A stretch of 64,000 nucleotides of DNA. Origin: Viola odorata (lineage: Eukaryota > Streptophyta > Magnoliopsida > Malpighiales > Violaceae). A program made the translations under genes and the position numbers. The stretch lies in assembly GCA_963691705.1 (NCBI GenBank), contig OY829542.1:29870579-29934578 (forward strand). The letters are read 5' to 3'. Below, in pieces: positions 18,770-63,082 of this stretch; position 1 is the first letter of the stretch; the number at the start of each line of letters is the position of its first letter. Below the pieces are notes generated by a model. The model made no database searches, had not been told where the DNA came from, and saw only the letters and a program-made list of their open reading frames with translations.

Positions 18770-20295
18770 AGTTAAAGGCCTTGCCGAATCATCTCAAGTA
18801 TGCCTATCTTGGACAAGATAACACTCTGCTAGTGATAATCTCGGCCAAGCTTTCCAGCGATGAAGAACACAGGTTGATTGATGTTCTAAAGCAACACAAA
18901 GAGGCGATGGGATGGACTTTGGCAGACATCAAGGGCATATCTTCAACCATTTGTACCCACAAAATACATGTGGAAAAGGATAAGAAAACAGTTAGACAAC
19001 CTCAGAGGAGGTTAAACCCTCCAATGATGGAAGTTGATAAAAATGAAATTATTAAATTGCTTGATATTGGGGTGATTTACCCAATCTCTGATAGCTCATG
19101 GATCTCTCCTGTGCAGGTGGTACCAAAGAAGACGGGGATCACCATTACAGAAGGAGAAGATGGAACAAAAAGAACAACCAGAATCTAAAACGGGTGGAGA
19201 GTTTGTATCGACTACATGAAGCTTAACCAAGTCACAAGAAAAGATCACTTCCCACTGCCATTTATTTACCAACTGGTAGAGAGGCTGATTGGTAAGTCCC
19301 ACTATTGCTTCTTGGATGGTTATTCAGGATTCCATCAAATTTCGGTTGCAGTAGAAGACCAAGAGAAGACAACATTTACATGCTCATTTGGAACCTTTGC
19401 ATATAGGAGAATGCCTTTTGGACTATGCAACGCACCGACCACCTTACAAAGGTGCATGGTAAGCATCTTTTCAGAATATGTAGAGAAGAGTATTGAAGTG
19501 TTTATGGATGATTTCAACGTGTACAGTGATAATTTTGACCAATGCTTACTTAACTTGAAAAATATTTTGAAAAGATGTGTGGATAAATGTTTGGTATTGA
19601 ATTTTAAAAAATGTCATTTCATGGTGGATCAAGGTATAGTCCTAGGCCATGTTGTTTCTAAGAAAGGAATTGAGGTTGCCCAAGCTAAAATTAATGTTAT
19701 AAACAGTATGCCTTACCCCTCATGTGTGCATGAGGTTAGAAGTTTCCTTGGCCATGTAGGATTTTATCGCAAGTTTATCAAAGATTTTTCGAAAATCGCG
19801 GAACCTATGTGTAAACTGTTACAAAAGGAAGTCGACTTCATCTTTGACGAAGCATGCCAAAAATCCTTTGATGAGATAAAAGAGAGACTGATATCAACCC
19901 AAATAATCCATGAACCAGATTGGAGCCTGCTTTTCGAGCTGATGTGTGATGCGAGCAACTCGACGGTTGGTGTAGTTCTTGCCTAGAAAAAGGGTAGAGA
20001 TCCACATGTGATCTACTACGCCTCTAAAATGCTAGATGAAGCGTATAAGAATTACACCACGACCAAAAAGGAATTATTTGCAATAATTTTTTCCCTTGAC
20101 AAGTTTAGATCATACTTGTTAGGGAAAAAAGTTATTGTATTTTCTGACCACGCTACCTTGAGATATCTCTTAGCTAAACCTAAATCTAAGCCAAGACTGA
20201 TCTGTTGGATTCTCCTTTTGCATGAATACAACTTGAAGATTAAGGAAGAAAAAAAAGGAAGCGAGAATATTGTTGCAGACCACATAAGCAGATGA
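18760..20295 (+). pseudogene. Element 1 reverse transcriptase and RNase H, broken
   Basis: Reverse transcriptase runs from about 18940 (LNPPMMEVDKNEIIKLLDIG) through FRRMPFGLCNAP-type sequence (YRRMPFGLCNAPTTLQRCM) to the catalytic FMDDF at 19501-19515. The thumb (SFLGHVGFYRKFIKDFSKIA) leads into RNase H, with [27 protein letters not shown] and [10 protein letters not shown], ending VADHISR at 20295. Stops at about 19186, 19984 and 20293 break it. Everything from about 19706 onward is the ancestor copy of the amplified unit. Confidence 0.9.
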
Positions 20296-20752
20296 TTTGT
20301 AAAAGCTGACTCAGAGCCAGTCAAAGACGAATTCCCCAATGAATATCTATACTTGGTCAAGGCAATCAGACCATGGTATGCTGACCTTGTCAATTTCCTA
20401 GCCACAGGTAAACATTTTGGAAACCTGACCAGCCAGGAAAAGGTAAAGATTAAGCATAACAATAGATATTTCATCTGGGATGATCCATATCTCTAGAGGA
20501 TAGGATCAGATAACTGCTTAGGAGATGCATTCCTGAAAGTGAAATCCCATATGTTTTGAAATTCTGCCATTTTTATGCATGCGGTGGGCACTTTGGAGCA
20601 AGGAGAACAACTCTAAAAATCCTTGAATCATGATTCTATTAGCCCACCATATTTCATGATAATTATGCATTTTACAAAACATGCCCAAAATGTCAGAAAA
20701 TAGGAAACATAAGTTCTAAAAATCAAATGCCCAGGAACTTTATCATTAATTG
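19706..20752 (+). repeat. Amplified pol unit, ancestor copy (C0)
   Basis: The part of element 1 pol that is repeated downstream. It runs from the RT thumb (PSCVHEVRSFLGH) through RNase H and the integrase HHCC zinc domain (CPKCQKIGNISSKNQMP) to a point just before the integrase core. It is joined smoothly to RT on its left; on its right it meets the first chimeric junction at about 20745-20775. Confidence 0.88.
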
Positions 20753-21405
20753 TGGCCTAGGAAAATGCCCAACATGCGCGCTTGAGGTTAGAAGTTTCCT
20801 TGGCCATACAGGATTTTATCACAGGTTTATCAAAGATTTTTCAAACATTGCGGAACCTATGTGCAAACTGTTACAAAAGGAAGTTGACTTCATCTTTGAC
20901 GAAGCATGCCAAAAAATCCTTTGATGAGATAAAAGAGAGACTGATATCAGCCCTAATAATCCAGGCACGATATTGCAGCCTGCCTTTCGAGTTGATGTGT
21001 GATGCGAGCAACTCGGCGGTTGTTGCAGTTCTTGGCCAGAAAATGGTAGAGATCCACAGGTAAACATTTTAGAAACTTGACCAGCCAAGAAAAGGTAAAT
21101 ATTAAGCATGACAGTACATATTTCATCTGGGATGATCCATATCTCTAGAGGATAGGGTCAGACCAACTACTTAGGAGGTGCATTCCTGAAAGTGAAATCC
21201 AATCTGTTTTGAAATTCTTCCATTCTTATGCATGCGGCGGACACATTGGAGCAAAGAGAACAGCTCTAAAAATCCTTAAATCAGGATTTTAGTAGCCCAC
21301 CACCTTTCATGATAGTTATGCATTTTACAAAACATGCCTAGAATGTCAGAAAATAGGAAACATAAGTTCTAAAAATCAAATGCCCATGAACTTCATCTCT
21401 AATTA
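20753..21405 (+). repeat. Pol unit copy C1, deleted
   Basis: Starts at the chimeric junction. About 390 bp are missing at 21054-21058, where CCACA occurs at both ends of the lost part, consistent with a microhomology deletion. Confidence 0.88.
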
Positions 21406-22234
21406 CGGCCTAGGACAATACTCCTCATGCGTGCGTGAGGTTAGAAGTTTCCTAGGTCATACAACATTTTATTTCAAGTTTATCAAAAATTGCGGAACCT
21501 ATGTGCAAACTGTTACAAAAGGAAGTCGACTTCATCTTTGACGAAGCATGCCAAAAAGCCTTTGATGAGATACAAGAGAGACTGATATCAGCCCCAACAA
21601 TCTAGGCACTAGATTGGAGCCTGTCTTTCGAGCTGATGTGTGATGCGAGCAACTCGGCGGTTGTTGCAGTTCTTGGCCAGAAAAGGGTAGAGATCCACAA
21701 GTGATCTACTACTCCTCTAAAATGCTAGATGAAGCGCAAAAGAATTACACCACAACCTAAAAGGAATTATTCACAATGATTTTTGCCCTTGACAAGTTTA
21801 GATTATACTTGTTAGGGACGAAAGTTATTTCATTTTCTGGCCATGCTGTCTTGAGATATAACTTGGCTAAACCTGAATCTAAGCCAAGACTGATCCGTTG
21901 GATTCTCCTTTTACAGGAATACAACTTGGAGATTAAGGACAAAAAAGGAAGGGAGAATCTTATTGCAGACCACCTAAGCAGATGTTTTGTGGAAGTTGAC
22001 TCAGGCCAGTAAAGACGAATTTCCCGATGAACATCTATACTTGGTCAAGGCAATCAGACCATGGTATGCTGACCTTCTCAATTCCCTAGCCACAGGTAAA
22101 CATTTTGGAAACTTGACCAGCCAGGAAAAGGTAAAGATTAAGCATGTGAGTACATATTTCATCTGGGATGATCCATATCTCTAGAGGATAGGGTCAGACC
22201 AACTACTTAGGAGGTGCATTCCTGAAAGTGAAAT
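21406..22234 (+). repeat. Pol unit copy C2, split by element 2
   Basis: Begins at the junction near 21406 and is interrupted at 22234 by the Athila element 2. Its remaining 64 bp lie at 35580-35643 and are shortened by further deletions. Confidence 0.88.
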
Positions 22235-23841
22235 TGTTAGCATGTTTTTATACATGATTTTCCCTCCATTATCTCGCCAATTTAAGGCATGATTCTGCTA
22301 ATTTACCCTTGTTTTCATTACTATTGCAGATCTAGGCATAAAAAAAGGAGTTTATGCGAAAAGATTCATTTTAGGAGCATTTTGTGCGAATTCGAGCTTC
22401 AAGACCAAAGTCGAGGTCCCGACACTAGGATAGCGTTCAAGGTCTCGAAGAGAATCCACTATTCGAGACCCCAAAGGGCAAAGAACGACATTTCCACGTG
22501 TCCTCTTGCCAAAGCTTCCACGTGATCCCTCTGACGCTTCTCTGAAAGTTCTGCACTGATCACAAAATACCTACCCTCTGACCATTCCAGACCTTGAGCC
22601 TAATCCAGATCTGCCAAAGCTGGACAAATCAAACCAAGAAACCAGCTTTGTGCTTTTCAGCTTTATGCTTTAGGGAGCATGGTTGCTTTGTGATAGGCTT
22701 TCCTTAAATGCATTTTGTCCCTAGTTAGGGCTGAAGATATTTTGTGCTTGAAGTTCTAGCTTATCTCTCTAGTTTACCTCTCTAGTTCTTGTTAGCAATC
22801 TTCTCCTTTGCCGCCGGGCTTGAAACGTTTTCGGTTTAGTAATCAAGTTTTCTTCCCTTAATCTATTTCTTTACTTGTTATGCTCTCTTTAATTATTATT
22901 TATTTACCTTCAAGCATGAGTAGCTAAATCTTTAGTTCTTAGCAAAGGTAATTCAAGGGTTGCTAGGGCAGATTCGAGGCCTAAACGTGCTTAATATATT
23001 CTTGCTTTCATATTTAATTGTTCATCATTTTAATTACATTTTCACTTGTGGTAATTAGAGGCATGATCAACTGATAATTTCTATGAGTGAATGTTGTCAT
23101 CTATGTGATAAATATGGAAGGAAAGTTGCATAGAATAAGTAGACATCTATCTAGTAGTAGCTGCGCTGAAGTGGTCTCGACTAGCTAGGGTGAGTAGTTG
23201 ATTGGAGCGGGGTCAAGAGCCTGACAAACTGAGGGATCTTTAGCTCCAGCTGTGTCTTTTCTTATCTTCATGGGAAGTCTGAATATGGCCCTCCCGCATT
23301 CGTGCCTGGAGGGATGGCGGGCTGTCAAGACTACCTCATATGTGGAAACAGGGGGTAGTTTCTCTTAAGAGAAAAGTAGGGGATATCCGAGGAATCTGGT
23401 CCCTATGTCACTTCTATGATTGCATGAGTAGAATATTTCTGTGCTGATGACGATCGGGTCCCCGAATGCAACCTAAAAATACCTTTTGCTAAGATCCTTC
23501 TTTATCTGACTTATTGTGTTTATTTATCTCTCTGTTTTATTATTCTGACTTTGCTCACTAATTTGCTATATTTTATCCTTCGGGACCCCTAACTGATGAC
23601 TCGAGATCCTGATTACTGCTTTCATAGTTAGAATTGATAGCTCAAACACTCTCTTGGCTAACCTGTTTAGTCAAGTAAAACCCCCCCGTGTGTTACGTTT
23701 TTGTATTTTTGTTCTATGTTTTCATTCAAGATTTTGAATCAGTCTCTCCCAATCTCTGTGTTCGACCCTGACTACCACTGTACACATTATCAATTGTGCA
23801 CATATTTTTAGGCATTATAAATTGTATTTGACTGACGATCA
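22235..23841 (+). repeat. Left LTR of element 2
   Basis: 1,607 bp from TGTTAGCATG to GACGATCA. Largely identical to the right LTR except for a replaced block at about 22765-22890. Confidence 0.95.
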
Positions 23842-23844
23842 AAT

Positions 23845-23862
23845 TGGCGTCGTTGCCGGGAA
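23845..23862 (+). other. Element 2 primer binding site, tRNA-Asp type
   Basis: TGGCGTCGTTGCCGGGAA follows the left LTR by three bases and matches the tRNA-Asp complement with a few changes. Confidence 0.82.
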
Positions 23863-23894
23863 TATTTCAGGACTGATTTATTTTTCTTGTTTGT

Positions 23895-25850
23895 ATGACC
23901 AGGAGATCTGCACCTGACCTACTACCTCTTGATCACGAGCTCACTAGGATGGAAAGAGGCCTTCGACGACTAGCGCGAGGATCTTTCAATCCTTGTGTTC
24001 GGGACCTCGAACGCCTTTTCGCTCTAGAGAATCTCGACAATCCAGACCCCGACGACATACCACTCGTCCACCCAGAAGGACCTGAAATGGATGATCACGG
24101 TCCTGAAGGGAACGATATTCCACAATTACCCTCAGTAATCCAGACCATTGATGAATTCAATGCAGCCCCCGAGGCCCCAACTAGTTGTATCGTTTGGCCA
24201 GTGGTCCCAAATGACTGGGAACTCAAATCTGCCGTCATGCACCATCTACCCCTCTATCGAGGGTTGGCCAAGGAGAATCCCCACCGTTATCTCCAACAAT
24301 TACACTCTATTTGTGATGTCATGCAGCCCCATAATGTTAGTGTGGAACATGCTAAACTCTACGCCTTCATGTGGTCCCTCAAGGACGATGCTCTTGATTG
24401 GTTTTATGACTTGCATCCTCAATCCATCAATTCATGGGCTGAAATGTCCAAGGCTTTCACGGACAAATATTACCCGGTATCCATCGCCATGGTAACTCGC
24501 AAGCAGCTAGTGTCTATCCTCCAAAAAGACATGGAAGATCTTGAGCAATACTATGAACGCTTCAAGAAGACGCAAGCCTTATGCCCCTCGCATAATCTCT
24601 CCGAGCATGCTCTCATCTAGTCTTTTTGTGAAGGACTCAAGGCCCGAGACAAGGCCTTGCTCAACGCTGCTGCAGGTGGTTCCATCACTAGACTCACTCC
24701 CGCCGCCGCCAAAGACACTATCGAGCTCATGGCCAAGAACAACCTCCCTCTCAACAATTCCACCAGCAATCAAGACGCTCGCGCAACAGCCATGGAAAAC
24801 CACCTATCAGCCATCACTGGTATGCTTCAGAATATGGCTTCGGGACACCCAGTCCAGGTCAAGGCCTGTCAAATCTGTCAACTTTCAGACCACCCCACTG
24901 ATGCTTGTCCATTCATCCCCGAAGAGATGCCCGTCAATGCTGCGGGAGGATTCAATGTCCCGTATGGTCAGAACAACAATCAAGGCTGGAGAGCGCCTAA
25001 TTACCGATGGAATGGCTCTCAACAGGACAGACCTAGCCATCAGTATGGATAAAATCCATACAGAAATCACCCCCCTCCCTTCAACATGCAGAATTTCAAG
25101 CCCCGACCCAATTTCCAGAATTATCAATATCAGAGACAGCCACAGAAAGATCAGGCCTTCGTCGTGCCCCCGAATGAGGAGCCCTCCCCTGATAAGAAAA
25201 AAATTGCGGAGCTTGAAAAACAAATACGTACTTTCATGGCCGAAATGAAAGAGGTGAAAAATGGAGGAAGATTTCCAGGGCAAACAGAACCCAAACCGAA
25301 GTATGAGGCATGTGCTATGAACCTCCGTAGTGGTCTCGAGATACCTTCTCGCGTCCATCCAGACCCCGATTCTGCAAAAGACAATCAAGGTCCCGAAGTT
25401 GATAATGTTATTCAAGGTCCCGAATGTGACAACAACGCACAACCACCTCCAGAACAGCCCACTGAGCCCATTGAACAGCCAAAGAAGTCTCGATTCAATG
25501 ACGCAGCTCTCGACCATTTCTTCTCCAGCAAGAAGTCTCGATGTAAGAAAAAGCAACCCGTTGAGGAAGAATTCTCTCAAGAGTTCATTAACAAGGTACT
25601 CGAGCCCCCGTTCCCTCAACGGTTGGTCAAGAAGAAGAAAGATGAAGAGAATCAGGACATCTTCGACATGTTCAGCAAGGTCATTATCAACACCCCTCTT
25701 CTCAAGACTATCAAGAATATGCCGCAATATGCAAAGTTTTTGAAACAACTTTGCACAAACAAGAACAAATTCACCGAGGTGAATCGGATAGGTGTGGGAG
25801 CTAACTTGTCCGCTCATATCCAACGCAAGATCCCCCCAAATGCAAAGATC
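23895..25850 (+). pseudogene. Element 2 gag, broken
   Basis: The start MTRRSAPDLLPLDHELTRME is at 23895. The gag core has ENPHRYLQQLHSICDVMQP and FTDKYYPVSIAMVTRKQL. A stop at 24618-24620 cuts it, but the same protein resumes downstream with AAAGGSITRLTP (from 24657). A zinc-knuckle-like CQICQLSDHPTDAC is near 24868-24909. A glutamine/asparagine-rich part, a lysine-rich linker and the conserved DMFSKVIINTPLLKTIKNMP (about 25666-25725) follow. At least one stop at 25050 and a frameshift near 25850 are visible. Confidence 0.88.
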
Positions 25851-26500
25851 AAGGCATGTTCACTGTCCCGTGCAGAATTGGCACAATCGACATTGGGAAG
25901 GCTATGTGCAATTTGGGGGTCGGAATTAATGTTATGCCTTTGACTATCTACAACAGCCTCGGACTCAGACCCTTGAAAGAAACCACGCTGGTTATCTAAC
26001 TTGCAGACCGCTTAGTTGTCTATCCCAAAGGCATAATCACGGATGTTCTTGTCCAAGTAGGCGAATTCCTATTTCCAGCAGATTTCTATGTTCTTTCCAT
26101 GGAGAACCCACCAACCACCAAATCTTCGGATGTACTTTTGGGGCGCCCTTTCTTGGCCACTGCCAGTGCAAAAATTGATGTCTATGAAGCCTCCATCTCC
26201 CTCAAATTTGATGGGGAAATCATCTGTTTCAACATGCTGGACTCCATGAAGTATCCATCAGAATTTTCAAGTGTCAATTTTATTGACGTGATAGACCCCT
26301 TTGTTGAGAACATTGCTGACCTGAATTCTATCGAGCCTTTGAAGCTGGCTCTCGACGGAAGTCTCACCCTCGAATCCTTGAAAGAGATGGCATCATCCAT
26401 TGCAGTCCCTACCGAATTATGCTCAGTCGTAGCAGCTTTGGAAGAAAATTCTTTCCTCCCAGTTGAGCCCCCGAATGAGGTACCCGAATGCAAAGATCAC
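25850..26500 (+). pseudogene. Element 2 aspartic protease, broken
   Basis: After a frameshift near 25850 the protein continues with GKAMCNLGVGINVMPLTIYN (about 25898-25957). This is the protease active-site region, but the expected D(L)GAS is altered to NLGVG. The conserved VLLGRPFLATASAKIDVYEA lies at about 26130-26190. Loss of the catalytic aspartate and an intervening stop show decay. Confidence 0.8.
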
Positions 26501-26539
26501 GTTCGACTTACACCTTCTCTAGTGCAAGCTCCGGATCTC

Positions 26540-26785
26540 GAACTCAAAACACTGCCCTCGCATTTGAAATATACCTATCTTGGGGAGAAGGAATCCCTCC
26601 CGGTCATCATTTCCAACAAATTGGAGGAGGCTCAAGAGCTTGAATTGGTAGAGCTCCTCAAGAGCTTTAAACAAGCTCTTGGCTGGACTATTGCGGACAT
26701 CAAGGGTCTATCACCATCCCTATGCACTCATCGTATCCACCTTGAAGAAGCTAGCAAGACAATTCGACAGCCCCAAAGACGTTTG

Positions 26786-26820
<35 letters not shown>

Positions 26821-28090
26821 ATGGAGGTGGTCAAGAAAGAGGTCTTGAAGTTGCTTAATGTCGGGCTTATCTATCCTATTTCTGATTCCCCATGGGTCAG
26901 TCCTGTTCAAGTGGTCCCGAAGAAAACAGGCATAACCATCATTTCGGGTCCCGAAGGTCTGCCAATTCCCTCCCGAATCCAAAATGGGTGGCGAGTATGC
27001 ATTGATTACAGACGCTTGAATGAGGCTACCAGGAAAGATCATTTCCTACTGACCTTTATTGATCAAATGCTAGAGCGCCTTGCGAGCAAGACGCATTATT
27101 GTTGTTTGGATGGGTATTCGGGCTTCCACCAAATTCCAGTCGCCCTCGAAGATCAAGAAAAAACTACTTTCACATGCCCATTTGGCACATTTGCATACCG
27201 GCGCATGCCTTTTGGGTTATGCAATGCCCCAGCCACATTCTAGAGGTATGGTGAGCATTTTTTCAGAATTTGTAGAGGAGTGCATCGAGGTATTTATGGA
27301 TGATTTCACGGTTTATAGTAACTTTTTTTCCGAATGCCTCTCTAATTTAAAGAAAATTTTACAAAGATGTGTGGACACTAACCTTGTGCTTAATTTTGAG
27401 AAATGCCATTTTATGGTGGATCAAGGGCTCATCCTAGGCCACATCGTGTCCAGCAAAGGCATCGAAGTGGACAAGGCTAAAATTTAGGTTATTGAGACCT
27501 TGCCTTACCCCTCGAATATTCGAGATGTGCACTCTTTTCTTGGTTATGTAGGATTTTATAGGAGGTTTATTAAGGACTTCTCCAAGATAGCCCAGCCAAT
27601 GTGCTGACTGCTGCATAAGGATGTAGAGTTCATATTTGACGAAGAGTGCAGAACTTCCTTCGAGACCCTAAAAGCCAAGCTTATTTCTGCCCCAATAATT
27701 CGGGCCCCCGACTGGACACTCCCATTTGGAATCATGTGCGATGCTAGCAACCAGGCTTTGGGAGTGGTTCTGGGGCAAAAAAAGGATAAGGAGACTTACG
27801 TCATCTATTACGCTTCTAAGTTGCTGGATCCCGCACAACAAAACTACACCACGACGGAGAAAGAGCTTCTAGCGATTGTCTATGCCATTGACAAGTTTTG
27901 GTAGTATCTCTTGGGTACTCAAGTGATTGTTTATTCAGACCATTCAGCTCTTCGATGTCTACTCAAGAAGGCAGACGTAAAACCCAGACTTATTCGATGG
28001 ATCCTCTTGCTCTAAGAATTCAATCTAGCGATCAAGGATAAGAAGGGAACGGAGAATTGTGTCGCGGACCACTTGAGCAGGCTCCCGAAT
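26540..28090 (+). pseudogene. Element 2 reverse transcriptase and RNase H, broken
   Basis: RT begins near 26690 (ADIKGLSPSLCTHRIHLEE). A run of 29 C at 26788-26816 interrupts it right where the family has RRLNPPMMEV. It continues with SPWVSPVQVVPKKTGIT, YRRMPFGLCNAPATF and the catalytic FMDDF (about 27295-27309). The thumb, connection and RNase H follow: MCDASNQALGVVLGQKK, TTEKELLAIVYAIDKF, YSDHSALRCLL and VADHLSRL near 28080. Stops at about 27241, 27485, 27604, 27902 and 28015 break it. Confidence 0.9.
26788..26816 (+). repeat. Poly-C tract inside RT frame
   Basis: 29 consecutive C. The family sequence here is normally a two-proline site (LNPP), so the tract is an expansion, natural or introduced in sequencing or assembly. 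Confidence 0.9.
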
Positions 28091-28225
28091 CAAGAAGATG
28101 ACTCCCGAATGGCCATCCGAGAAACTTTTCCGGATGAACATTTATGCCTAGCTGAAGCAGCAAGATTCCCATAGTTCACGGATATTGCGAATTTTTGTGC
28201 CATCGGTGTCTATCCAATCGAGGCC

Positions 28226-29451
28226 TTGAGCGCTAAGCAGAACCGAATCCAGAAGCAAGCAAAATCCTATGTTTGGGACAACCCCTACTTGTGGAAACAT
28301 TGCTCGGATCAAATCATTAGGCGCTGTATCACAATGGATGAGGTCCCATCAATCCTCAAGTTCTGCCACTCAACCACGGAAGGAGGGCATTTTGCCGCAA
28401 AGAAGACCGCACTCAAGGTCTTGGAAGCTGGTCTATATTGGCCGTCGATTTTCAAAGATAACTATTTCTTTTGCGCCACTTGCCCTCGATGCCAAGCTAC
28501 GGGGAACATAGGAGCAAGGAATGAAATGCCTTTGACCAACATCCTTTCTTGTGAAATTTTTTATATTTGGGGCATCGACTTCATGGGTCCCTTTCCAAAT
28601 TCATTTGGGAACACATACATCCTACTTGCAGTGGATTATGTCTCTAAGTGGATTGAAGCCAAGGCCACCAAGATGAACGATTCAAGAGTAGTAGCTGATT
28701 TCCTTCGGACTAACATTTTCAACCGATTCGGGACCCCTCGAGCTCTCATCAGCGATCAGGGGACGCACTTCTGCAACCAAATGGGCTCCTCTTTACTCAA
28801 CAAGTATGGTGTGCCCCATAGAGTATCCACAGCCTATAATCCCCAGACCAATGGGCAAGTCGAGGTCTCGAATCGGGAGATTAAAGCTATCTTGGAGAAA
28901 ACCGTCAATCAATCAAGAAAGGATTGGAGCCTCAAGTTGGGAGATGCGTTATGGGCATACCGTACAACATTCAAGACCCCGATCGGTTGGTCTATGGCAA
29001 GCCATGTCACCTCCCAGTTGAGATTGAACACAAGGCGTTCTGGGCCATTAAGAAGGTCAATATGGACCTGAATTTAGCCGGCAATGATCGCTGCCTACAG
29101 ATTCAAGAGCTTGAAGAGCTTCGGGGGGATGCTTACAAAAACTCCATGATTTATAAGGGTAAGACCAAAGCCCAACATGATAAGCACCTCATCCTCAAGA
29201 CTTTCACTGTAGGGCAAAAGGTTTTATTGTACAACTCCCGTTTGTAAATTTTTTCAGGAAAACTAAAATCTAAGTGGACGGGACCATACAAGATCACTAC
29301 CGTGTTCAACCATGAGGCAATCGAGATCCAGAATTTAGACAATGGTGAACCGTTCAAGGTTAATGGCCACCGACTGAAACCATTCTACGAAGGATTCCAG
29401 CCCACAACTGTCGAAGAGATGAGGGTGGAAGACCCAACACTCGGGACCTAG
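28226..29451 (+). pseudogene. Element 2 integrase, broken
   Basis: The HHCC zinc domain is at about 28360-28520 ([13 protein letters not shown] then [13 protein letters not shown]). The DDE core has [26 protein letters not shown] and [15 protein letters not shown], so all three acidic residues are present. A frameshift near 28990 moves the C-terminal half to another frame ([19 protein letters not shown], to 29247). The last part, VNGHRLKPFYEGFQP, is near 29360-29402. The element-integration enzyme is therefore not made in one piece. Confidence 0.9.
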
Positions 29452-47103: not shown

Positions 47104-47160
47104 GTGATCCTTTTCTGCAGATTCTTCACATTCTCTCAGCCCCTCATTTGCCATTTTCTC

Positions 47161-51693: not shown

Positions 51694-54110
51694 ATGGCAA
51701 AAAGAAAAAATCGTGCTTTTGGGTCTAAATCAGTGGATGAAGAAAAAATAGAGACCATAGTCAGTACCATTACTTCTTCTGTCATTCTTGATAAACATCT
51801 GTCTGACCACGGTGCCACCCTCCCTGAGGGTTTCGAGGCTTCTGTCGCCCCTGCGTCTTTACGCCTGAATAACGTTATGACCGGCAAGCTCAGAATCATG
51901 TATGCCCAGATGTTCCGTTACGGCTTCCGGTTGACTCGTTTATCCAAGAGTTACTTACCTCTCTGGATCTGAGCCCTGTTCAACTGGCCCCAAATGCCTA
52001 CTGTGGTATTTATACATTTCTAGAACTCTGCAAGTACAAAGGAATTGCATCTCCTTCCCTTGCATTACTGAAGTCTTTGTTCAAGATGTATAACCCCGCT
52101 ATGACGATGATTCGCTCCAGAACTTCACCTGGAAACTCCTTCATTTAGAGTCTTCCATTGATAAATGGAAAGAGCAGTTTTTTATGGTTGAGACTCCCGA
52201 GCTTCCGGAGCCATGGTGGCGGTCTGGTTTCAACCAGAGCGTTAAGGATAGGGCCTGGCGCCGGGTGGCTCTTAATGAGACGGAAAGGGCTGGTTTGATA
52301 AATTGCTCAGTCTGGATATCAGCGTTCGCACCCGCCTTCTGGCTTGCGGGGCCGATATCAGAGCCTGCATTAGACGTGAGTATCGCGTCAATCTTTGATT
52401 TTTAGTATTAGTATTAATGCTGACGCTGTCTTGTGCTTTTGCAGCAATTGATCCGAATTACGTTCCCGAGAGCGTTAGGAGGCGCCGAAAGAGACTTCGA
52501 GATAGAGAAGCGGCCGCGGCTGTCAATATCGCCACCACTTCGGCTATTCCTTCTGCCACCGCTTCGGCTCCTCCCCAAACATCTTCCGCCTCAGTTGACG
52601 AGGGAACCGACACCATTCCGGTTGGCATTCCTGTCATATCAATCGTTGCCCCTCCTCCCTAGTCAGCTGCTCATAGGGCTTCCGCAAGAGGAAAGAAGAA
52701 AAGGAAGACAAGGAGCGTTGCCTCCCTTCAGCCACTAATTCCGCCTTTATCGGATGCGGTTGACTCCTCAGAAGCACCTGCCGATGAGACGGTAACGGCT
52801 ACTGCTCCCCTATACTTCTTGCGCCTCTTTTTCAATGCCTTTCTGCCTTTTCTTTGGTTTTTCATTACTTTTCTTCATAGGTTACTTCTCGTGCCTCTAC
52901 TCCTGCTCTGCCGCGAGGTAATATGGACTTGAGGCGTATTCTTTCTCAACCAAGGAAGAAGAAGAGGTCTGATGGAGCAAGTCCAAGTCTGTCCTCGATC
53001 CAGGTGGATGTCGGGGTGGGGCCTCAAGCCGTCTTTGTCTCTTCCGCACCTCTCACAGGTCAGACTGGTAGCATTTTTTAGGGAGTGGCCATGCCTGGGC
53101 TTTTTGAGAATTCCCCACCTTCATTCGGCTCGGAAGTACCTCGCTATTCCTCTAACGTGGTCCATACTGATGATTTGTCAGGTTTCTCCGGCTGTCAACC
53201 CCAAGGATCATTCATGCCTCAGGGAGGTTCTGCTTCTAACCAGCCTCATGAGACAACCAGGCCACAGGGAGGTTCCGCTTCCAACTAGCCTCCTTCTCCT
53301 GCTGCCGTGGTTTTTGTCCCTTCCGATGCTTCCATGCTTAAGCGTTTTAGGGAGGGGACAGTAGTATCCAAGCTTATGGCCGACATAAGCTCATATGACA
53401 CCACTGGGCCCATCACTCATTAGGTGGATATGACTACGCTTCGTAGTTTGAGGATTGCGGCTATGGGGGGCGATAACTCGGCCGTTACTGCTTCATTATT
53501 GGCTGTACACATGCTGACGTCTCCTGAAGAAAGAAGTGCCTTTGCTGCTGTGGGAGACGAAGAGCAAGTCGACTTACTGCGCTCCAAACTTTTCACTGGG
53601 TTCCTCGAATTTCATCAATACACTAAGCGCGCATCGCAAAAGGCGGCTGACCTTGCCTCTTCCGTAGCCCAGCTTTCACGGGAGCAAAAGGAAAAACAGC
53701 GGCTACTAGAAGTGCAAGACAAATATATGAAGGCCCTAGAGGCAGCCAAGGAGGAGGCAAAGGAAGCGAAGGAACAGCTGGCTAACTCTAATGCTGCTCT
53801 GGCGGTTGAACAGGTGAAGATTGTCGCTCTTGAGGGGGAGAAAACAACCTTGGCGGAAGAGAAAGTAGCTTTGGTAGAAGTGAAGGCAGCACTTGAGGCG
53901 GAAACAGCGATCAAGAGTCGTTGGTATATTGAAAAGACTGCTTCTATCATAGCTAACAGCTTTGTAGAGATTCACGGGGAAGAATTTTATGACTGAGACG
54001 CTGTTTCTAACGTCTTTTATAAGAATTCTTCCGGTCTGAATGACGAGGGCTTCCGCTTGGCCAGATCGAAAGGCTACCCAGAGGAAGGGATTGTCGAAGA
54101 CCAGCAGTAG
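51694..54110 (+). pseudogene. Antisense gene B: second gypsy-type transposon domain plus coiled coil
   Basis: Starts MAKRKNRAFGSKSVDEEK. The conserved domain, MYAQMFRYGFRLTRL then LSPVQLAPNAYCGIYTFLEL and IASPSLALLKSLFKM, is the same as in gene A but strongly diverged. Two intron-like gaps are seen: 52376-52444 (GTGAGT...TTTTGCAG), which joins ACIR and IDPNYVPESVRRRRKR in frame, and 52792-52880 (GTAACG...TTCATAG). The last part (53424-53996) is a long coiled coil rich in Glu/Lys/Ala (EAKEAKEQLANSNAALAVEQ). Frameshifts near 51950 and 52160 and several stops break it. Confidence 0.66.
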
Positions 54111-54750
54111 GCAGGGTATTATTGCCTTCCTTCTTTCCTGTGAGGATTGAGCATTCCCCTTTTTTGTTCGCCTTTGTATATTTTTGTATCCCTTCATGGG
54201 TATTTGAACAATGACACTTCTATGATACCAACTTTTTCCGGTGCCATTTTCCTTTCCCATGTATTTCTTTTTCTTCGAATTTTTGTAACGTGGCCTTCGC
54301 GCTCTTATCACCTTGATCATGTTAACAGTCTTTGTCATGTTCGACTTAACCACTGTCTGGCCTCGTCAGGGAGCACATTCCTGAAAGAAGCATTCTTCTT
54401 TCCTTGATCAAAAGAGATAACTAATAGGGTTTTAAGGCCCTATCCCTTAAACCTCGTCAACATTAGCGTGGTTGGCTTTACGTCTACTTTGTCGACGAGT
54501 AATACAACTCTTTAATCCCCTCGAGTGTCGCGATCTCTCGTAGTCAGAGATATCCTGCACACTCTCAATTAATGTTTATTAGTAAGAAATAAGCGATAAT
54601 AGACACGAGTTTCCCATAGGAGCTGATCCGCCACCATTCTAGGGTACCGGTGTCATTTCTTATTGCTTTCTCAACCAGTTCACTTCACTAGGGATTCCGC
54701 ATCTGGTTACTCGCTGGGATTTCGCAATTTTTCGCATTTCCACGATCAGC
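54111..54750. other. Element 3 spacer
   Basis: Non-coding stretch between antisense gene B and the tandem repeats; no feature recognised. Confidence 0.5.
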
Positions 54751-54755
54751 CAAAA

Positions 54756-55340
54756 AGTGCCTCTTCCTAGTGAGTCGTCTGATCAGGACAGGCCTTCACA
54801 AGGCTAGGATTTTTCACTTTCGGCGTTATCCTCTCATCCTGGAATCGTGCCTTCCCTTGGCGAGCCGTCTTCATCAGCCCGGCCGCAAGGATAGGATTTT
54901 CACTTCCATGATGGAGTTATTATCTCCTTAGGGTGTGCCTCATCCTAACGAGCCGTCTCCACGAGAATGGTTGTCATAAGGATGAGGCTTTTTCACCTTC
55001 AGGAATCCTGGGACATGCCCTCACTCAGTGAGTCGGTGGATCCAGACCGACCATCACGAGGATAGGACTTTTCACTCCCAGGGGTTGTCGGGGCGTACCT
55101 CTTCTTATGGCCCACACGTGGCTACCATAAGGATAGGACTTTTCACTCCCAACGCTAAATATTAAGTGCGCCAGGGCGTGCCCTCACTTAGTGAGCCATC
55201 GGATTAGGACAGGCCATCACAAGGATAGGACTTTTCACTCCTGACGCTAAATATTAGGTGTGCCGGGGCGTGCCCTCACTTAGTGAGTCGTCGGATCAGG
55301 ACAGGCCATCACAAGGATAGGACTTTTCACTCCTGGCAAC
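54756..55340 (-). repeat. Degenerate tandem repeats of about 90-100 bp in element 3
   Basis: Units share GTGCCCTCACTTAGTGAG and GGATAGGACTTTTCACTC. The last two copies are close to identical with a 92-bp period (GTGAG at 55191 and 55283); older copies upstream are diverged. They lie directly 3' of the integrase frame, the place where Tat/Ogre elements often carry tandem repeats. Confidence 0.82.
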
Positions 55341-55454
55341 CTCTTTTCCGATATCACCTGCACACACACACGTAGCCACAAAACAGAAGAAAGCTCATTA
55401 CTCGAGCATTAGCAGGGGTTAGGGCTAGCATTAGTGAAAAGGTGCAGAGATAAA

Positions 55455-56735
55455 TCAAAATCTAGCATGATATAATTTCAAACGAGCGATATTCCAGGAG
55501 TTAGGTAAGGGGGTACCGTCGAGTGTCTCTAGATGGTACACTCCTCTCCCGACAATACGGGTAACGCGGAATGACCCTTCCCAGTTTGGACTGAGCTTTC
55601 CCCGGCATTGACCAGTCGCTCGTTGATCCCTAAGTACTAGGTCACCTTCTTTTAGAAGTCGTTCTTTGACACGCCTATTATGATAACGCGTCATCTTTTG
55701 TTTATAGTGTGTCATTTTCAGGAGAGCTTCCTCTTGTAATTCAGGCAGCGCGTCAAGATTCGCACACAACCTTTCCTCATTTAGCTCTTCCCTGAAGTAA
55801 GCCACTCGTAGGCTCATGGTACCAATTTCCACAGGCGTGACGGCCTCAGTACCGAAAGCCAATGCGAAGGGTGTTTCTCCTGTGGTGGTTTTCGAGGTCA
55901 TGCGGTATGCCCACATCACATACGGCAGCTCATCCGCCCACTTCTTTTTGGATCCCTCTAGGTTCTTCTTAACACCGTTAAGGATGGCTCGGTTTGTCAC
56001 CTCAGCCTGACTGTTGGTCTGCGGATGAGCCACGGAAGAGAATCTCTGCTCGATTCCGAACTCCACGCATTGGTTTCTAAAGAATTGGCTGGTGAACTGT
56101 GTTCCGTTATCGCTAACTAACACGCAGGGAACTCTGAAGCGCATGATAACTTGATGTTTGAAGAAACGCCAGATTTTTTCTGTCGTGATGTTGGCAACTG
56201 CCTCAGCTTTCGCCCATTTGGTGAAGTAATCTACCGCCACAACCATAAATTTTAGCTGAGACCTCGCCTTCGGAAACGGTCCAAGGATGTTAATTCCCCA
56301 TTTCGCGAAAGGACAAGGAGCGATAATGTCATGAATTTGTGTGGCAGGCTGGCGAGGAATCTTGGAGAATTCCTGACACTTATGGCAGGTTCGCACTTAA
56401 TCATGGCAATCTTTTCAGATTGTGGACCAGTAGAACCCTGATCTAAACACTTGCGCAGCTAGGGTTTCGCCGGATGCATGCATGCCGCAAATTCCTTCGT
56501 GGATTTCGCGGAGGGTTTGAAGGCCCTCTTGCTCCGTTATGCACCTGGCAGCCGGATGAGAGAAACATCTTCGTATCAGTTCCCCATTGAAGTACGTGCA
56601 CCGTGCCGCTTGCTTGAGCAGTTTTTTCTTCTCTGCATTATCCGCTGGCAGCTCGTCATGCTTTAAGTATTTTATGACGGGAATTCTCCAGTTATTATCA
56701 CCTTCTTCTACACAGAGCGTCGCCTGTTTTTCCAT
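55455..56735 (-). pseudogene. Element 3 integrase, broken
   Basis: The N-terminal zinc domain starts in the frame ending at 56415 (LREIHEGICGMHASGETLA) and, after stops near 56400, continues with CHKCQEFSKIPRQPA. The core has PFAKWGINILGPFPKA (the usual aspartate of GIDILGPF is changed to asparagine), VLVSDNGTQFTSQFF and NSQAEVTNRAILNGVKK. The C-terminal part ends with LETLDGTPLPNSWNIARLK, normal for the Tat lineage. The D-to-N change at the first catalytic position would by itself abolish activity. Confidence 0.9.
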
Positions 56736-56739
56736 AAAG

Positions 56740-57887
56740 GAAGGTACGGGTAGCTCTCGGTAGTATACCCCTTTTGGTATGGACGCTTCCGGGTTTGCCG
56801 CGAGTTTGGCAAGGTTATCGGCGTCGGCGTTATCCTCTCAAGGAATGTGCTCGAAGCTAACCTGTATGCCACATTTCTTTATTTCTATCAGCTCGCGTTT
56901 CACCTTAGCAAGGTATTATACCATGATGGGCTCCCTAGCCTGAGAGTGTCCCAGAACTTGGTATATTATTAACTTGGAGTCTCCACAGACTTTCAGTCGC
57001 AAGTCTCCCAACCTCTCTGAGTCATGTATTCCCTTGATGGAAATGCTCTTTCCTATCCTGAGCCTGGCTAACAGCGCTTCGTACTCTGCGGCGTTGTTGG
57101 ACAGCGGCTGTAGGATTCGGATGGCATATCGCACATGGATGCCATGAGGCCCGCTCATGAAGATTCCGGCCCTGGCAAGCTCTTGATTTTTGGCACCATC
57201 CACGTGAATAACCCATAGGTCGGTGTAGGTTTCAGGGAAGGGGAGATCCAGCTCTTCTTTTTCCTTTTCAGTCAATTCTGTTAACGGATCAGGTGTGAAA
57301 GTGCATTCCGCGATAAAGTCCGCCAGAATTTGAGCCTTTACAGACGGTCGAGATCGATAATGCAACCCATATTGTTCAAGCTCAATAGCCCAAATCAGCA
57401 TTCTCCCGGAGGATTCAGGCTTCCGGAATATCCTTTTTAAAGGTTGGTCCGTAAGTACAATAACGGTGTGAGCTTGAAAATATCGATCCATCTTCTGCGT
57501 GGCTTGTACTAATACGAACGCTATTTTCTCAATACGGGCGTATCTCAGCTTGGCGTCTTTCAAGATGTGACTCACGAAGTATACGGGGCGGTGCGTGTGA
57601 TCGTCATCTCGCATAAGGACCGCGCTGACCACTTCGTCAGCAACCCCACGGTATAAATACAGGATATCGCCAGGCTCTGGTCTTGTCAATACCAAGCCAG
57701 ATGAAAAATAGGCCTTTAAGCTTGCGAAAGCTTCTTCGCATTCCGCCATCCATCCGAAGACGGCTTTCTTGCGTATAACCTTAAAGAAAGGGAGGCACCT
57801 CTCGCCTTGCTTTGAGATAAACCGTCCCAGCGCGATGATACGCCCGGTTAGCTTCTGGATCTCTTTTACAGTTCGAGGAGATATCAT
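56740..57887 (-). pseudogene. Element 3 RNase H followed by archaeal-type RNase H
   Basis: The first RNase H is a degenerate RT-linked domain: VYFVSHILKDAKLRYARIEK, VLTDQPLKRIFRKPESSGR and QILADFIAECT. About 50 residues later a second one begins, DLWVIHVDGAKNQELARAGI, with NNAAEYEALLARLRIG and KVCGDSKLIIYQV, giving D, E and D of a complete catalytic set. Such a second RNase H is known from Tat retrotransposons. The frame is open for 323 codons (57887-56916), then a stop interrupts the last helix (DNADADNLAKLAANPE near 56810). Confidence 0.88.
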
Positions 57888-57908
57888 GTCTTGGATGGCT
57901 TTGATTTT

Positions 57909-58663
57909 TTATGGGTTAGGCTGAATGCCCTTTCGACTGACCACGTAACCCAAAAATTTACCCGTTTGAAAGGCATACATGCATTTTCGAGGGTTTAGCT
58001 TCATCTGATATCGCCTCATTACTTCAAAGACTTCCTCCAAGTCAGCTAAGTGATCTTCGAAGCTTCGGCTTTTGATTAGTATGTCATCAACATAGGCCTC
58101 TACGTTTCGCCCGATCTGCTTCTCAAAGACTTGATTCGCCATCCGCTGGAAGGTGGCTCAAGTATTTTTCAACCCAAAAGGCATCGCCGTGTAGCAATAA
58201 GTGGCCTTGGGAGTAATGAAAGCAGTCTTCTCTTCATCCTCCTTAGCCATGGGGATTTGATGGTACCCCGAGTTGGCATCTAATGAGCTCAAGTATGCGT
58301 ACCTGGCAGCCTGATCAACTAGCTGATTGATCCGAGGAAGTGGGTAACAATCTTTGGGGCAAGCATCATTCAGATCTATAAAATCAATACACATGCGCCA
58401 CTCTCCGTTGGGCTTGGGAACCAAAACAGGGTTAGCCAACCAGGTGGGATATTACACTTCTCAAATAAAACCAGCGTCAAGAAGTTTAGCAACTTCCCTC
58501 TCGACAGCCACTGCTTTTTCAGCAGAGAAAGCACGTCGTTTCTGCTGAACTGGTCTTGCGTCTGGGTTGACGTTGAGCCGATATTCCGCCACCTCTCGCG
58601 AGATACCCGTAATGTCAGATGGCTTCCATGCAAACTTTCCTTTGCATGGAAGCCATCTGACAT
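57909..58663 (-). pseudogene. Element 3 reverse transcriptase, broken
   Basis: Recognisable blocks, from right to left: ISREVAEY-type sequence beside the hairpin; ANPVLVPKPNGEWRMCIDF; LSSLDANSGYHQIPMAKEDE; TAMPFGLKNT; and the catalytic AYVDDILIKS in the frame 58142-57909. Stops at 58156 (after KNT) and near 57906, and frame changes near 58450, break it. Confidence 0.88.
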
Positions 58664-58669
58664 TACGGG
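58606..58669. repeat. Perfect 29-bp inverted repeat (hairpin)
   Basis: Arms 58606-58634 and 58641-58669 are exact reverse complements with a 6-base loop (CTTTCC). The left arm is normal Tat coding DNA (minus strand FAWKPSDIT); the right arm is the extra inverted copy. Confidence 0.95.
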
Positions 58670-58697
58670 CTTTGCATTTGTTTAACAGTTGGGCTAA

Positions 58698-59740
58698 CTA
58701 GGACTTTTCCTTGGGATTGAGGTTATTGCTAACCAGAAATACAGCTCCATCTACCCCGTTAACTGGGACGTGAATCATCTTGTCCACAGGTTGAGTGTGT
58801 TTCTCCTCATTTCGTTCATATGGGTCCACCGTTACACACACGTACCTGTCACAATTCTTCTGCGTCATGAGCAGGTAGCATTCAGCCGCTAATTTCTGAT
58901 TTCCTCGGATCGAGACCACACCATCCCAGGATGGATATTTCAGCTTCAGGTGCTTTTGTGATATTGCAGCTCCGAAACGGTTGAGGAATGGTCGTCCCAA
59001 TATGGCGTTATAAGGCAGGTTTAGATCCACCACCAGGAAGAGAAGTTCCTCCAACCGTTTGGAGGTATCCTCCTTAAAATACACAGGTAAAGTGGTTACT
59101 CCAGTCACTGGGATGGGGACTCCGTCAACCCCAATAATGGGTTTTTTGCAGGGCGTAAGCTCATTATCCGAATGCTTCAGAAGATTGTAAGCTTCCAATG
59201 AAAACAAGTTTACGGCGCTTCCGTTGTCAACCAGAGTTCTTCTAACTCCATGGCTAGCGATAATGGGTGTAACCACTAGTGCGTCGTTGTGCGGATATAC
59301 CACACCCCTCTCGTCCTCTTCAGAAAAGGACAATATCATACGATCCAGGGCGCTTATCGCTTCACTCTTGATTGGCACACCCGCTCGCTTTCGCTTATCC
59401 CCTAGCGCGGGTGTCAGCTATGCAGACTCGTCCAGATAAGGTGTTCCTCCAGCGATGATGCTAATGATGGGGATATCCTCATCATCAATCGTAAGCATTT
59501 CTCGGCCTCCTCCCGCAGGACCAATGTCATGGCCTGGGGGGCGGGAAGGTGTCGCTTTGCCATCGGCTACTCTGTTTGTTGGGTTACTCTTGGCCTCTTC
59601 TCGTGTTTTCACGGTAAATTCTCCCAGATAGCCTTCCTCCACCAGACGCTCTATCGTCGCTTTGAGTTCTCGACATGCCTCGGTTGAGTGTCCTTTAGCT
59701 TTATGAAATTTGCAATAGGCATTTTCTCTTCTTCCCAAGA
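58698..59740 (-). pseudogene. Element 3 gag C-terminus and aspartic protease
   Basis: The zinc-knuckle-like CKFHKAKGHSTEAC (about 59712-59671) belongs to the end of gag. After a stop at 59418 the protease frame 59378-58698 runs for 226 codons. It has RTLVDNGSAVNLFSLEAYNL, where the usual DTGSS/DNGSS active site is seen as DNGSA, and LPYNAILGRPFLNRFGA. This frame is the best preserved in the element. Confidence 0.86.
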
Positions 59741-61361
59741 TCACCCCCGGTCTTACAGGGGCAGGATAACGGATGGGCAGGTTTCGCTATTCCACTATTG
59801 CTAGTATTTCTGCTCTGGGTAGGATGAAGGAAGGATGATCTGTGTCATAAACTCACCCCTTAGGAGGATCACCCTACCGCTGGGCTGAAGAGTCACCAGA
59901 CTTTCCCTTTGAGGAGTTGCCTCTTCTCCGATTAGATATCTTGGGAATGTGATCCTTTCGCTGAGCATAATCATCCATGAACCGATCTTCGGAAGTAGCA
60001 GGAACAGGAGTGTTATGGACTGGAGGCACAACTGGCGGCATGTTTCGAATCATGTCCCTGTTCTCTTCCTCTTCCATCCTTGCATAATTATGGGCTTTCA
60101 GCCTTAACGCATCTAAGGTTGCCGGCGGGTCAACCATTAAAGCATCTCTGAGCTTTCCATAACAACAGTTTCGCTTTAAGGCTTCGATAGCGAAATCAAC
60201 TGTTACACCTGGCGTCAGCGACATCTCGGTGTCAAAATAATGGAGGAAACTCCTCAAGGATTCCTGAGGTTTCCTGTGTAGGTCGAATAAAGCAGGAGCT
60301 GACTTCCTGATAGGGACTGCAGTACTAAATCGGCTCCTGAATTTAGACTCCAGCTGCGAAAAGTTATCAATAGACCCACCCGGAAGACCTTCGAACCACA
60401 AACGCGCGACCCCTGACAGGGTCATTACAAATATCTGACACAAAGCAGCGTCATTGTGGGTCTGGAATTGCACAAAGTCCTTCGCCTTGTTAAGATGAGA
60501 GATGGGATCTCTGGTGCCGTCATAGGATTCTGAGGGGAGCTTCACATGTTTACTAACTCTGTGACGCCTTGTACGCTAGCTAAAGGGGTGGCCAGAAGTA
60601 TCATCAAGAATTTCCCGCGCATGCCGAGGTGGGGATATCTCCAAATGACGCCTACGATCTCGCGGATTTCAATCAGGATGCCGCCTGGGAGTCAGAATGC
60701 GGCTCCTTGGTGAACGAGTTCGATGCCTCCTACTGCTGGATCTCTCACTCCCTCCAGGAGACATATCTCTATCATTTCCGCCCCTTCTACCGTCCGGACG
60801 ACCTCTATCCTCCTCCCGCCATTGACGCTCCTCTTGGGGAATGGGAAGTAAAGGCACTTGAGGTACATACAGTTCCACTGTCCTATGAGCAAACTATACA
60901 AGACTGACTGGCGCACTCAGTATAGGCAGCGTCAAAGGGACGTTCATATGCAATGGGGACGACAGTGGTCATTCTGTAATAATGGGTGGAGTGAAAATGA
61001 ACTGAGATGAGATTCCTGATCCGGAGGCACTAGGCATGAATCTAGCAGCCAGTTCCATTAAATGGTCCAACTGAGCACGGAGGGCTGAAATCTAGCTCGC
61101 GAAAGGGTTATTTGCGCCGTCTGTCATGGATCCTCTCGACTGGGGAGTAAAATGACTGGATCCCGCTATTTGGGATGAAGGAGTACACGGCTGGGACACA
61201 AATGTTCCCCCTGCTTGATCAAGAGACAGATCTGACGTTCCTGGAGAAACTTCTTGCACCGAGGTGGAAGCATCAGACGTGGCAAAAGTGAAAAGTCGCC
61301 TGCGAGTATCAAATGGAAGGCTAGAGGACTGAGTCAATGGCGGATCTGGATCAGAAGCCAT
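59741..61361 (-). pseudogene. Element 3 gag, broken
   Basis: The start MASDPDPPLTQSSSLPFD is at 61361, with a stop after 90 codons. The arginine-rich HRTRSPRSRILTPRRHPD lies in the frame 60878-60669. The gag core is in the frame 60545-59874: SYDGTRDPISHLNKAKDFV, ARLWFEGLPGGSIDNFSQLE and RKPQESLRSFLHYFDTEM. It ends in a basic, low-complexity tail (NRRRGNSSKGKSG). Confidence 0.86.
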
Positions 61362-61426
61362 AATCTTCCAATTCCCAGAAGAACAGAGCTTGGCTATTAA
61401 GGATGCTCACTTAATTAAAACCAAAG

Positions 61427-61444
61427 CTCTCAATGAAAGCACCA
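61427..61444 (-). other. Element 3 primer binding site
   Basis: Minus-strand TGGTGCTTTCATTGAGAG, four bases inside the 5' LTR. I cannot name the tRNA with confidence. Confidence 0.55.
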
Positions 61445-61447
61445 ATT

Positions 61448-62002
61448 TGATAAGATCTGGACTGTTGGGGAAGAGGAGTCGGGATTATGACCGTCTGGAA
61501 TCATTGTAACTACAGTCCGTCGTACCTGCAAGGCGCCGGAGGGGGGACTCTGGCGTAGACACTCCGATGCTTAAATTAGTATGGCTGTGAAATTTGGCAG
61601 AGATTTTGGTAGAGAGATTGCTCTTACTTTCGATCTAGAAATGAGGGGTATTTATAGCCGAAGGAAGAAGGGTCGTTACCCCCAGGGGTGGGCGTTATCA
61701 AGGGGAGATAACGCCCAGGATGACATCAACATACGTCAGCTAAACCGTACAAGAGGACGTCAACATGCGGATATCGCTGTAGAGAAATCGCCTATGGGCA
61801 CTGTCAGGGTATCCTGGGATGGGATGACGCCGTGTGGGTCCCCCCCCCCCCCCCCCCCCCCGCTGATGTCGACCATCCCAGGATCCTTGGCCTAACGGGG
61901 GCGGCAGCCGGGTGCCGTTTGTCAGTCAAGGTCTATAGGGATCCGGTTTTGACTTGAGGTGAGAAGACGATTATACCCTTAGTGTTTCCTTAATTGTTAT
62001 CA
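61448..62002 (-). repeat. 5' LTR of element 3
   Basis: 555-bp partner of 45821-46388, with a 22-base C-run at 61840-61861 and the same TATA box. Confidence 0.95.
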
Positions 62003-63082
62003 TATGGGGCGGGTACTTTAGAGCAAGGAGAACAGCTCTAAAAATCCTTGAATTAGGATTTTGTTAGCCCACCATCTTTCATGATAGTTATGCATTTTAC
62101 AAAACAAGCCAGAATGTCAAAAAATAGGAAACATAAGTTCTAAAAATCAAATGCCCATGAACTTTGTCATTAATTGCGAAATATTTGATCTTAGGGGAAT
62201 TGATTTTATGAGACCCTTTCCTAGTTCATTTGGGAATCAATATATTCTTTTAGTAGTTGATTATGTGTCAAAATGGATAGAAGCGAAAGCTACTAGGAAC
62301 AATTATGCTATAACTGTTGTTGCAATTTTGAAATCTAATATTTTGAATAGATTTGGTGTTCCTGGGGGATTTATTAACGATCGTGGGACTCATTTTTACA
62401 ATAGAATTATTGACTCACTTTTCAGGAAATATGGAATCACACACAAGGTCTCTCCTGATTACCATCCTCAATCCAATGGCCAAGCAGAAGTCTCAAACAG
62501 GGAAGTTAAATCAATCTTGGCCAAGACAGTAGGCCTAGATCGACGAGACTGGAGCCAACGTTTAGATGATGCATTGTGGGCATACAGGACAGCCCACAAA
62601 ACGCCTATTGGGATGACTCCGTATAAATTGGTCTATGGAAAGGCATGTCATTTGCCTATGGGTATTCAACACAAGGCTTATTGGGCAATACGAAAGTGCA
62701 ACTTGAAGTATGACCAAGTTGGAGAGGAAAGAAAACTCCAAATCCACAAGCTGGATGAGTTGAGAAACCAAGCATATGAAAACCAACTTATCATCAAAAC
62801 CATAATGGTAGCATACCATGACAAGAGAATTATTGAAAAACCTCTCCACACAGGGAGAAAGTTTTTTAATCAAGATTTAAATTATTAAATGGTAAATTGA
62901 AAACTAAGTGGGAAGGACCTTATATTGTCACTAATGTATACCCACATAGTGCAGTGGACATCAAGAACGAGAAAACGAGAGTCGTGTTCAAGGTCAATAG
63001 ACAACGACTGAAACCATTTTTTGAAGGATTTCCAACTGAAGTGGAAAGTCAGGTGGTAGACATACCACCAACAATTGACTGA
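62003..63082 (+). pseudogene. Element 1 integrase: end of C12 and the only catalytic core
   Basis: The stretch 62003-62176 is the zinc-domain end of array copy C12. It passes without a chimeric junction into the integrase core, DLRGIDFMRPFPSSFGN (62188 on), with INDRGTHFYNR and NGQAEVSNREVKSIL, so the D, D and E positions are kept. The fold continues to ALWAYRTAHKTPIGMTPYKL and, after a frame break near 62885, to [18 protein letters not shown] and the stop at 63082. This is the place the array would have to be cut out to restore normal domain order. Confidence 0.9.

Follow-up and report, generated by a model that had tools for sequence, protein, structure and literature searches.

Here, we describe a tandem array made from a pol segment of an Athila-like long terminal repeat (LTR) retrotransposon and lying inside that same element in Viola odorata (assembly GCA_963691705.1, contig OY829542.1, positions 29,870,579 to 29,934,578). 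These 64 kb, inside a 699-Mb assembly, are referred to below as the window. A unit of ~1,049 bp is repeated head to tail in thirteen copies, each built from 1,033 bp of pol (the C-terminal end of reverse transcriptase (RT), RNase H and the integrase (IN) zinc finger) followed by ~14-16 bp of filler. We favor, at a probability of roughly 0.68, an origin by one break-repair tandem duplication in the pol of the host element, followed by amplification by exchange or copying. Satellite birth is mostly inferred long after the event, and at this one locus the parent gene, the founding join, an early expansion, its interruption and a recent regrowth can be seen together, the join bearing a readable repair signature.

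Anatomy and coding content of the array

Self-comparison and mapping of one unit yield 13 copies in a single order, all on the forward strand and separated by 12 inter-copy joins, which bears out the thirteen-copy head-to-tail array that the original prediction, made from the letters alone, had placed at 19706-62176. That span is mostly occupied by two nested elements, N1 and N2, both later insertions that split the array, so that its net length within the one Athila-like retrotransposon is ~12.9 kb (2.5 + 10.2 + 0.2 kb). The self-comparison has a strong 1,049-bp period at ~38-45 kb, with related sequence at 19.7-22.2, 35.6-45.8 and 62.0-62.2 kb. The parts of the array and the two insertions are:

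19716-22234, forward strand: array block A, with copies 1 and 2 and the first part of copy 3 (self-comparison and unit mapping)
22235-35574, forward strand: N1, an LTR retrotransposon within copy 3, with target site duplication (TSD) GAAAT and gag, RT and IN by Pfam
35580-45820, forward strand: array block B, with the end of copy 3 (carrying a deletion), copies 4-12 and the start of copy 13
38781-45074, forward strand: six young copies of a recent expansion, mutually 98.8-100% identical
45821-62002, reverse strand: N2, an LTR retrotransposon within copy 13, with near-TSD TATGC/TATGG and minus-strand gag, RNase H and IN
62008-62175, forward strand: last part of copy 13 (unit about 861-1033), running on into the integrase core without filler

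The first five copies start at about 19716, 20770, 21421, 35659 and 36694, and the other eight at 37732, 38781, 39830, 40879, 41928, 42977, 44026 and 45075. A period of exactly 1,049 bp, as predicted, is found only from 37732 onward, and the eight markers named between 37691 and 45034 are each an ATG at 1,049-bp spacing; the copies at 35659 and 36694 depart from it, measuring 1,035 and 1,038 bp. Copy 2 (20770) has an internal deletion of ~0.4 kb at 21054-21058, copy 3 (21421) is interrupted by N1, and copy 13 (45075) has an internal deletion near 45293, is interrupted by N2, resumes near 62004-62008 and ends at 62175/62176. Identity to the copy at 41928 runs from 88 to 100%, and 41928 and 42977 are the sole pair of mutually identical copies.

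This last pair, together with six copies at least 98.8% alike, is what one would expect if the array were wholly or partly an assembly artefact, an explanation that we hold to be very improbable. The outer copies stand ~9-12% off the central group, some with private deletions, and two TSD-flanked elements lie inside. Since the copies are 88-100% identical to copy 41928, a simple assembly loop is no explanation and the array is real; an assembly error would most plausibly alter only the count of young copies.

The domain make-up of the unit agrees with the prediction of a segment between the RT active site and the integrase core. RNase H models are found by Pfam in three copies (4, 13 and 6) and part of Integrase_H2C2 in two (copy 6 at 25.2 bits and copy 10 at 24.1, the cut-off being 25.5; the dispersed relative L002 scores 39 bits). 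The RVT_1-matched stretch stops upstream of the array, and the integrase core lies downstream:

19189-19983, forward strand: host RT reading frame, continuing into array copy 1 (Pfam RVT_1 E=2.8e-24, RT_RNaseH_2 E=4.5e-9)
62088-62885, forward strand: single-copy integrase core reading frame of the host, following the last array copy (Pfam rve E=1.6e-9)

A protein with repeated domains was also considered as a product and is ruled out, because the 1,049-bp unit shifts the frame at every copy (1049 mod 3 = 2). All ten copies tested (copies 2, 3 and 13 stood outside the test) contain 8-14 stops in their best frame, with one open stretch of 211 amino acids left in copy 4. Judged by these frames, the array is unable to encode a repeat protein, and no coding function was found for it.

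The founding join

The unit was compared with 38 dispersed relatives (all other loci returned by the similarity search), of which 7 include flanks and 31 are short, with only the downstream side seen. Unit positions 1-1033 are collinear with ordinary pol: all seven flanked relatives carry the unit once, ending at unit 1031-1035, and the segment continues directly into the integrase start in 30 of the 31 others, L053 having matched neither the integrase start nor the unit start. In the array, the unit end is followed instead by a filler of 14-16 bp, GGCCTAGGACAATA, after which the unit starts over. Each of the 12 joins has this filler in intact or mutated form (14/14 bases in five, 13/14 in six and 12/14 in one), and it is absent after the last copy, which continues straight into the integrase core.

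Within 250 bp of the breakpoints, the best match to the filler is 13/14 and inverted, a score reached by 0 of 2,000 Markov-resampled region pairs. Outside the joins, nowhere else in the window is a match of at least 13/14 reached. The site lies 68-81 bp upstream of the left breakpoint, and the filler is its reverse complement:

19635-19648, reverse strand: putative filler template, inverted (13/14 in the host, 14/14 in relatives L002, L003 and L007)

In these three relatives, the match extends to an exact run of 16 nt, with TACC shared with the left breakpoint; the other four of the seven match at 13, 12, 9 and 8 of 14 bases, the 8 belonging to L008, which is without an alignable RT flank. Such a join suggests a single template-switching founding duplication. 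A 1,033-bp duplication with an inverted local filler of 14-16 nt matches the ~1-kb tandem duplications with templated insertion of the polymerase-theta type. According to excerpts of the work on helq-1 C. elegans, tandem duplications that depend on polymerase theta range there from 100 bp to 10 kb, with a median of ~1 kb, and now and then carry a templated insertion; plants are stated to lack HELQ and to have mostly templated insertions (PMC8654963). By analogy, polymerase theta is a candidate for the enzyme of the founding join.

In the course of events that we propose, one DNA repair error would have duplicated ~1,033 bp of pol in tandem within the Athila-like retrotransposon. A broken end would have copied pol up to the boundary between integrase zinc finger and core and been rejoined to the RT C-terminal region. 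Before this join, the end would have switched template and copied 14-16 nt from the opposite strand, at a site 68-81 bp upstream of the target, and then rejoined through the TACC microhomology, as when an intermediate of failed homologous repair undergoes polymerase-theta-type end joining. The repeats may then have risen quickly to at least six lineages by unequal exchange or replication-based copying, each lineage decaying independently. Two other retrotransposons would have inserted into the array, and later one central copy would have been re-amplified into six near-identical copies.

A genome-wide search with the junction pattern (up to 3 mismatches, 699-Mb assembly) gave 11 forward and 0 reverse matches, all at this locus, against 2 for a reversed control. 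This search missed the more mutated join of copies 1 and 2, and strongly decayed arrays elsewhere could escape it too; the similarity search scored 39 of 1,788 candidates, omitted the copies of block B and is weak on tandem neighbors or decayed arrays.

History of the array and of its host

In a tree of the array copies (without the ~170-bp last fragment), the 38 relatives and N1, which served as outgroup, all array copies fall into a single clade (ultrafast bootstrap (UFBoot) 100, stem 0.011). The early branches within it are short (0-0.010), apart from the 0.062 stem of the six central copies, and the later lineages are long, that stem being joined by tips of 0.019-0.055. Copies 2, 3 and 4 share a later ancestor (support 98), as do copies 3 and 4 (99), and the six central copies (38781-45074) form a tight group (100), with divergence K of 0-0.009 from copy 41928. 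Read from this tree, the history is one of fast, star-like early expansion (K about 0.09) and then long independent decay. The divergence between copies is close to that between copies and relatives, about 10%, as would be the case if ectopic recombination had drawn the copies from different members of the family; with a single clade at UFBoot 100 against 38 relatives, and the filler, mutated or not, at all 12 joins, we find such recruitment scarcely credible.

Faster mutation of the array was considered separately and is unsupported: identity to relative L002 is 88-93% for array copies 1-13, like that of the single-copy flanks (90.0% and 91.6%). CpG-excluded distances between copies are smaller, yet mostly still above the LTR value given below.

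The LTRs of N1 (about 22235-23841 and 34001-35574) differ by K=0.048 and those of N2 (45821-46390 and 61448-62002) by K=0.059. Since the central copies differ by only 0-0.009, the six-copy burst postdates both insertions, and this growth took place as chromosomal DNA, after the element was disabled. N2 has further features of its own: it is 16 kb long, yet its LTRs measure only ~560 bp; its minus-strand gag, RNase H and IN lie between 60.6 and 55.5 kb, a 92-bp tandem repeat stands at 55129-55335, and 46.4-55 kb includes long stretches without a Pfam match in the tested frames.

The host element extends from 15486 to about 65578 (~50 kb, including 29.5 kb of N1 and N2):

15486-16031, forward strand: truncated host 5' LTR, of which the final 546 bp remain, with CAATCA at the end; identity to the 3' LTR outside the window (L020:942-1578) is ~94%
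16571-17134, forward strand: host gag fragment (Pfam Retrotrans_gag E=4.1e-15)
63540-64000, forward strand: start of the host 3' LTR (TGATTGG...), by its match to the 5' LTR of relative L027

The 5' LTR is followed at about 16037 by a primer-binding-site-like stretch, TGGCGCCATTGCCGGGGA, which may resemble tRNA-Asp. The 3' LTR has a ~0.56-kb interruption and then runs on until 1,578 bp beyond the end of the window. With a truncated 5' LTR, a primer-binding-site-like stretch and a matching 3' LTR, the claim of a pol coding segment amplified head to tail within an LTR element stands. In the frames tested (array copies and relative L002), Pfam found no second RNase H model, only RT_RNaseH and then Integrase_H2C2. 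Archaeal-type RNase H (aRH) marks Tat and in Ogre/Retand is positioned between RNase H and integrase, according to excerpts of PMC6317226. With no second RNase H in those frames, the host fits Athila better than Tat (OTA Ty3/gypsy).

Five deep copies (1, 4, 5, 6 and 13, a choice of ours that omits copies 2 and 3 as well as the faster central group) have a mean K of 0.088 (95% 0.075-0.101), and the host LTR pair has K 0.062 (0.040-0.082). From the nearest relative, the LTRs and pol stand at similar distances, both about 8-12%, and the host LTR pair includes an identical run of 108 bp (P 0.025, post hoc). The excess divergence of the array may reflect a founding duplication before insertion, or partial LTR conversion, or chance. 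N2 is necessarily younger than the host, yet its LTR K is 0.059 against 0.062, which means that LTR clocks are loose here.

One alternative is that the founding duplication or a short array was made in reverse transcription or in an earlier element and transposed in, with later growth chromosomal. The greater divergence of the early copies than of the LTR pair (0.088 vs 0.062) and the similar LTR and pol distances to relatives would suit this course, but the junction is found at no other locus (11/11 matches here), the LTR and array confidence intervals overlap and the clocks are loose, as N2 makes plain; we consider it unlikely. A stronger form, in which a multi-copy pol array predated the insertion and was transmitted by way of an RNA intermediate, the retrotransposon thereby carrying an incipient satellite, would lead one to expect array divergence above LTR divergence, and appears to us decidedly doubtful.

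Several observations weigh against a single break-repair duplication in the inserted host. Array K exceeds LTR K (bootstrap P about 0.02), support for the early splits within the array is low (20-58), and microhomology at the first switch is only ~1 nt. By sequence alone, a chromosomal polymerase and a reverse transcriptase are indistinguishable, and the number of near-identical copies is that of the assembly alone. The predicted origin in place stands for the six-copy burst, which is younger than N1 and N2, and is loosened for the founding duplication, which may predate or coincide with insertion; on the whole, an array that arose in place is likely.

Elsewhere in the window, direct repeats at 1637-2456 and 2843-3676 are 95% identical, with ~386 bp between them, and start with TGTTGGAGTCC and end with CCAACA. 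The stretch 1637-3676 is flanked by TCCCT on both sides and looks like a short non-autonomous LTR element; a zf-RVT fragment (3889-4380) adjoins it. Short tandem repeats of 157, 52 and 72 bp lie outside the host element at 7597-7915 and 11765-12258. Just outside the window, minus-strand stretches at L020:3549-9004 and L021:4229-10000 are ~70-76% identical to host pol, and a 608-bp pair (L020:8397-9004 and L021:9393-10000, 99.8% identical) perhaps represents the LTRs of a very young insertion.

Satellite status and known systems

The array shares with satellites a head-to-tail arrangement of a homogenised monomer (13 copies, six of them 98.8-100% alike), and its monomer comes from a single element, unit 1-1033 being collinear with the pol of relatives. 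Long arrays or many loci are not found (junction here only, net ~12.9 kb), and the monomer lies in pol, from RNase H to H2C2, rather than in an LTR, untranslated region (UTR) or post-pol region as in CRM/Ogre-type monomers. Within the reach of the junction search, which had 11 of 11 matches at this locus, a dispersed satellite is ruled out. The check proposed with the original prediction, a search of the assembly for other arrays of the unit, made with the junction pattern, found none beyond this locus at up to 3 mismatches, and the satellite-like label does not hold in the genomic sense. As far as the searches extend, the tandem repeat occupies a single locus; it is most likely neutral and growing locally, and possibly the precursor of a satellite.

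The prediction also called amplification of a coding pol segment inside an Athila element an undescribed route, which was overstated, as tandem repeats derived from coding sequence of transposable elements (TEs) are in print (PMC9659126; for gag also PMC3648361, both in excerpt). According to excerpts of the review PMC9659126, tandem repeats can arise from any part of a TE, POL being among the regions named in the legend of Figure 2; the coding-derived examples in the review include gag in wheat/Aegilops and rye E3900, ORF2 of long interspersed nuclear elements in PROsat and Pvc 20, and the CACTA transposase-derived repeat CficCl-61-40. An RNase H-integrase-derived array was not found in the open-access literature searched, mostly at title and abstract level, and the excerpts of PMC6947457 contain nothing on integrase or the pol gene. 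This suggests that an RNase H-integrase monomer that is still housed in its parent and has a founding join whose template can be read is without precedent in that literature, the general type being already known. The locus also suggests that arrays can be seeded in dead elements, with no prior UTR tandem repeat, by ordinary break-repair duplications of ~1 kb.

Set beside the known systems, each as excerpted from its source, the array resembles the coding-derived TE repeats in that coding sequence of a mobile element became a tandem repeat, and differs in that the segment is RNase H-integrase zinc finger of pol and that parent and founding junction are visible (PMC9659126). The ~1-kb size of the first duplication and the templated insertion at the join are shared with the duplications of helq-1 worms, which are a laboratory mutant, whereas here one old plant junction would have been multiplied later (PMC8654963). 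CRM1TR and CRM4TR, the maize centromeric-retrotransposon repeats, likewise have a monomer wholly from one Ty3/gypsy element; their founding junction is ascribed to illegitimate recombination and their growth to gene conversion, and their arrays too contain heterologous retrotransposon insertions that serve as dates (PMC3648361). Their monomers consist of LTR and UTR in long loci, whereas here pol coding sequence forms a single short array flanked by its parent (PMC3648361). Ogre repeats turned satellites (PMC7004042) and the Retand arrays between pol and the 3' LTR (PMC11963269) are likewise tandem arrays inside an LTR retrotransposon and possible satellite precursors; they lie downstream of gag-pol in many element copies, whereas in Viola odorata the array interrupts pol at one locus (PMC7004042, PMC11963269).

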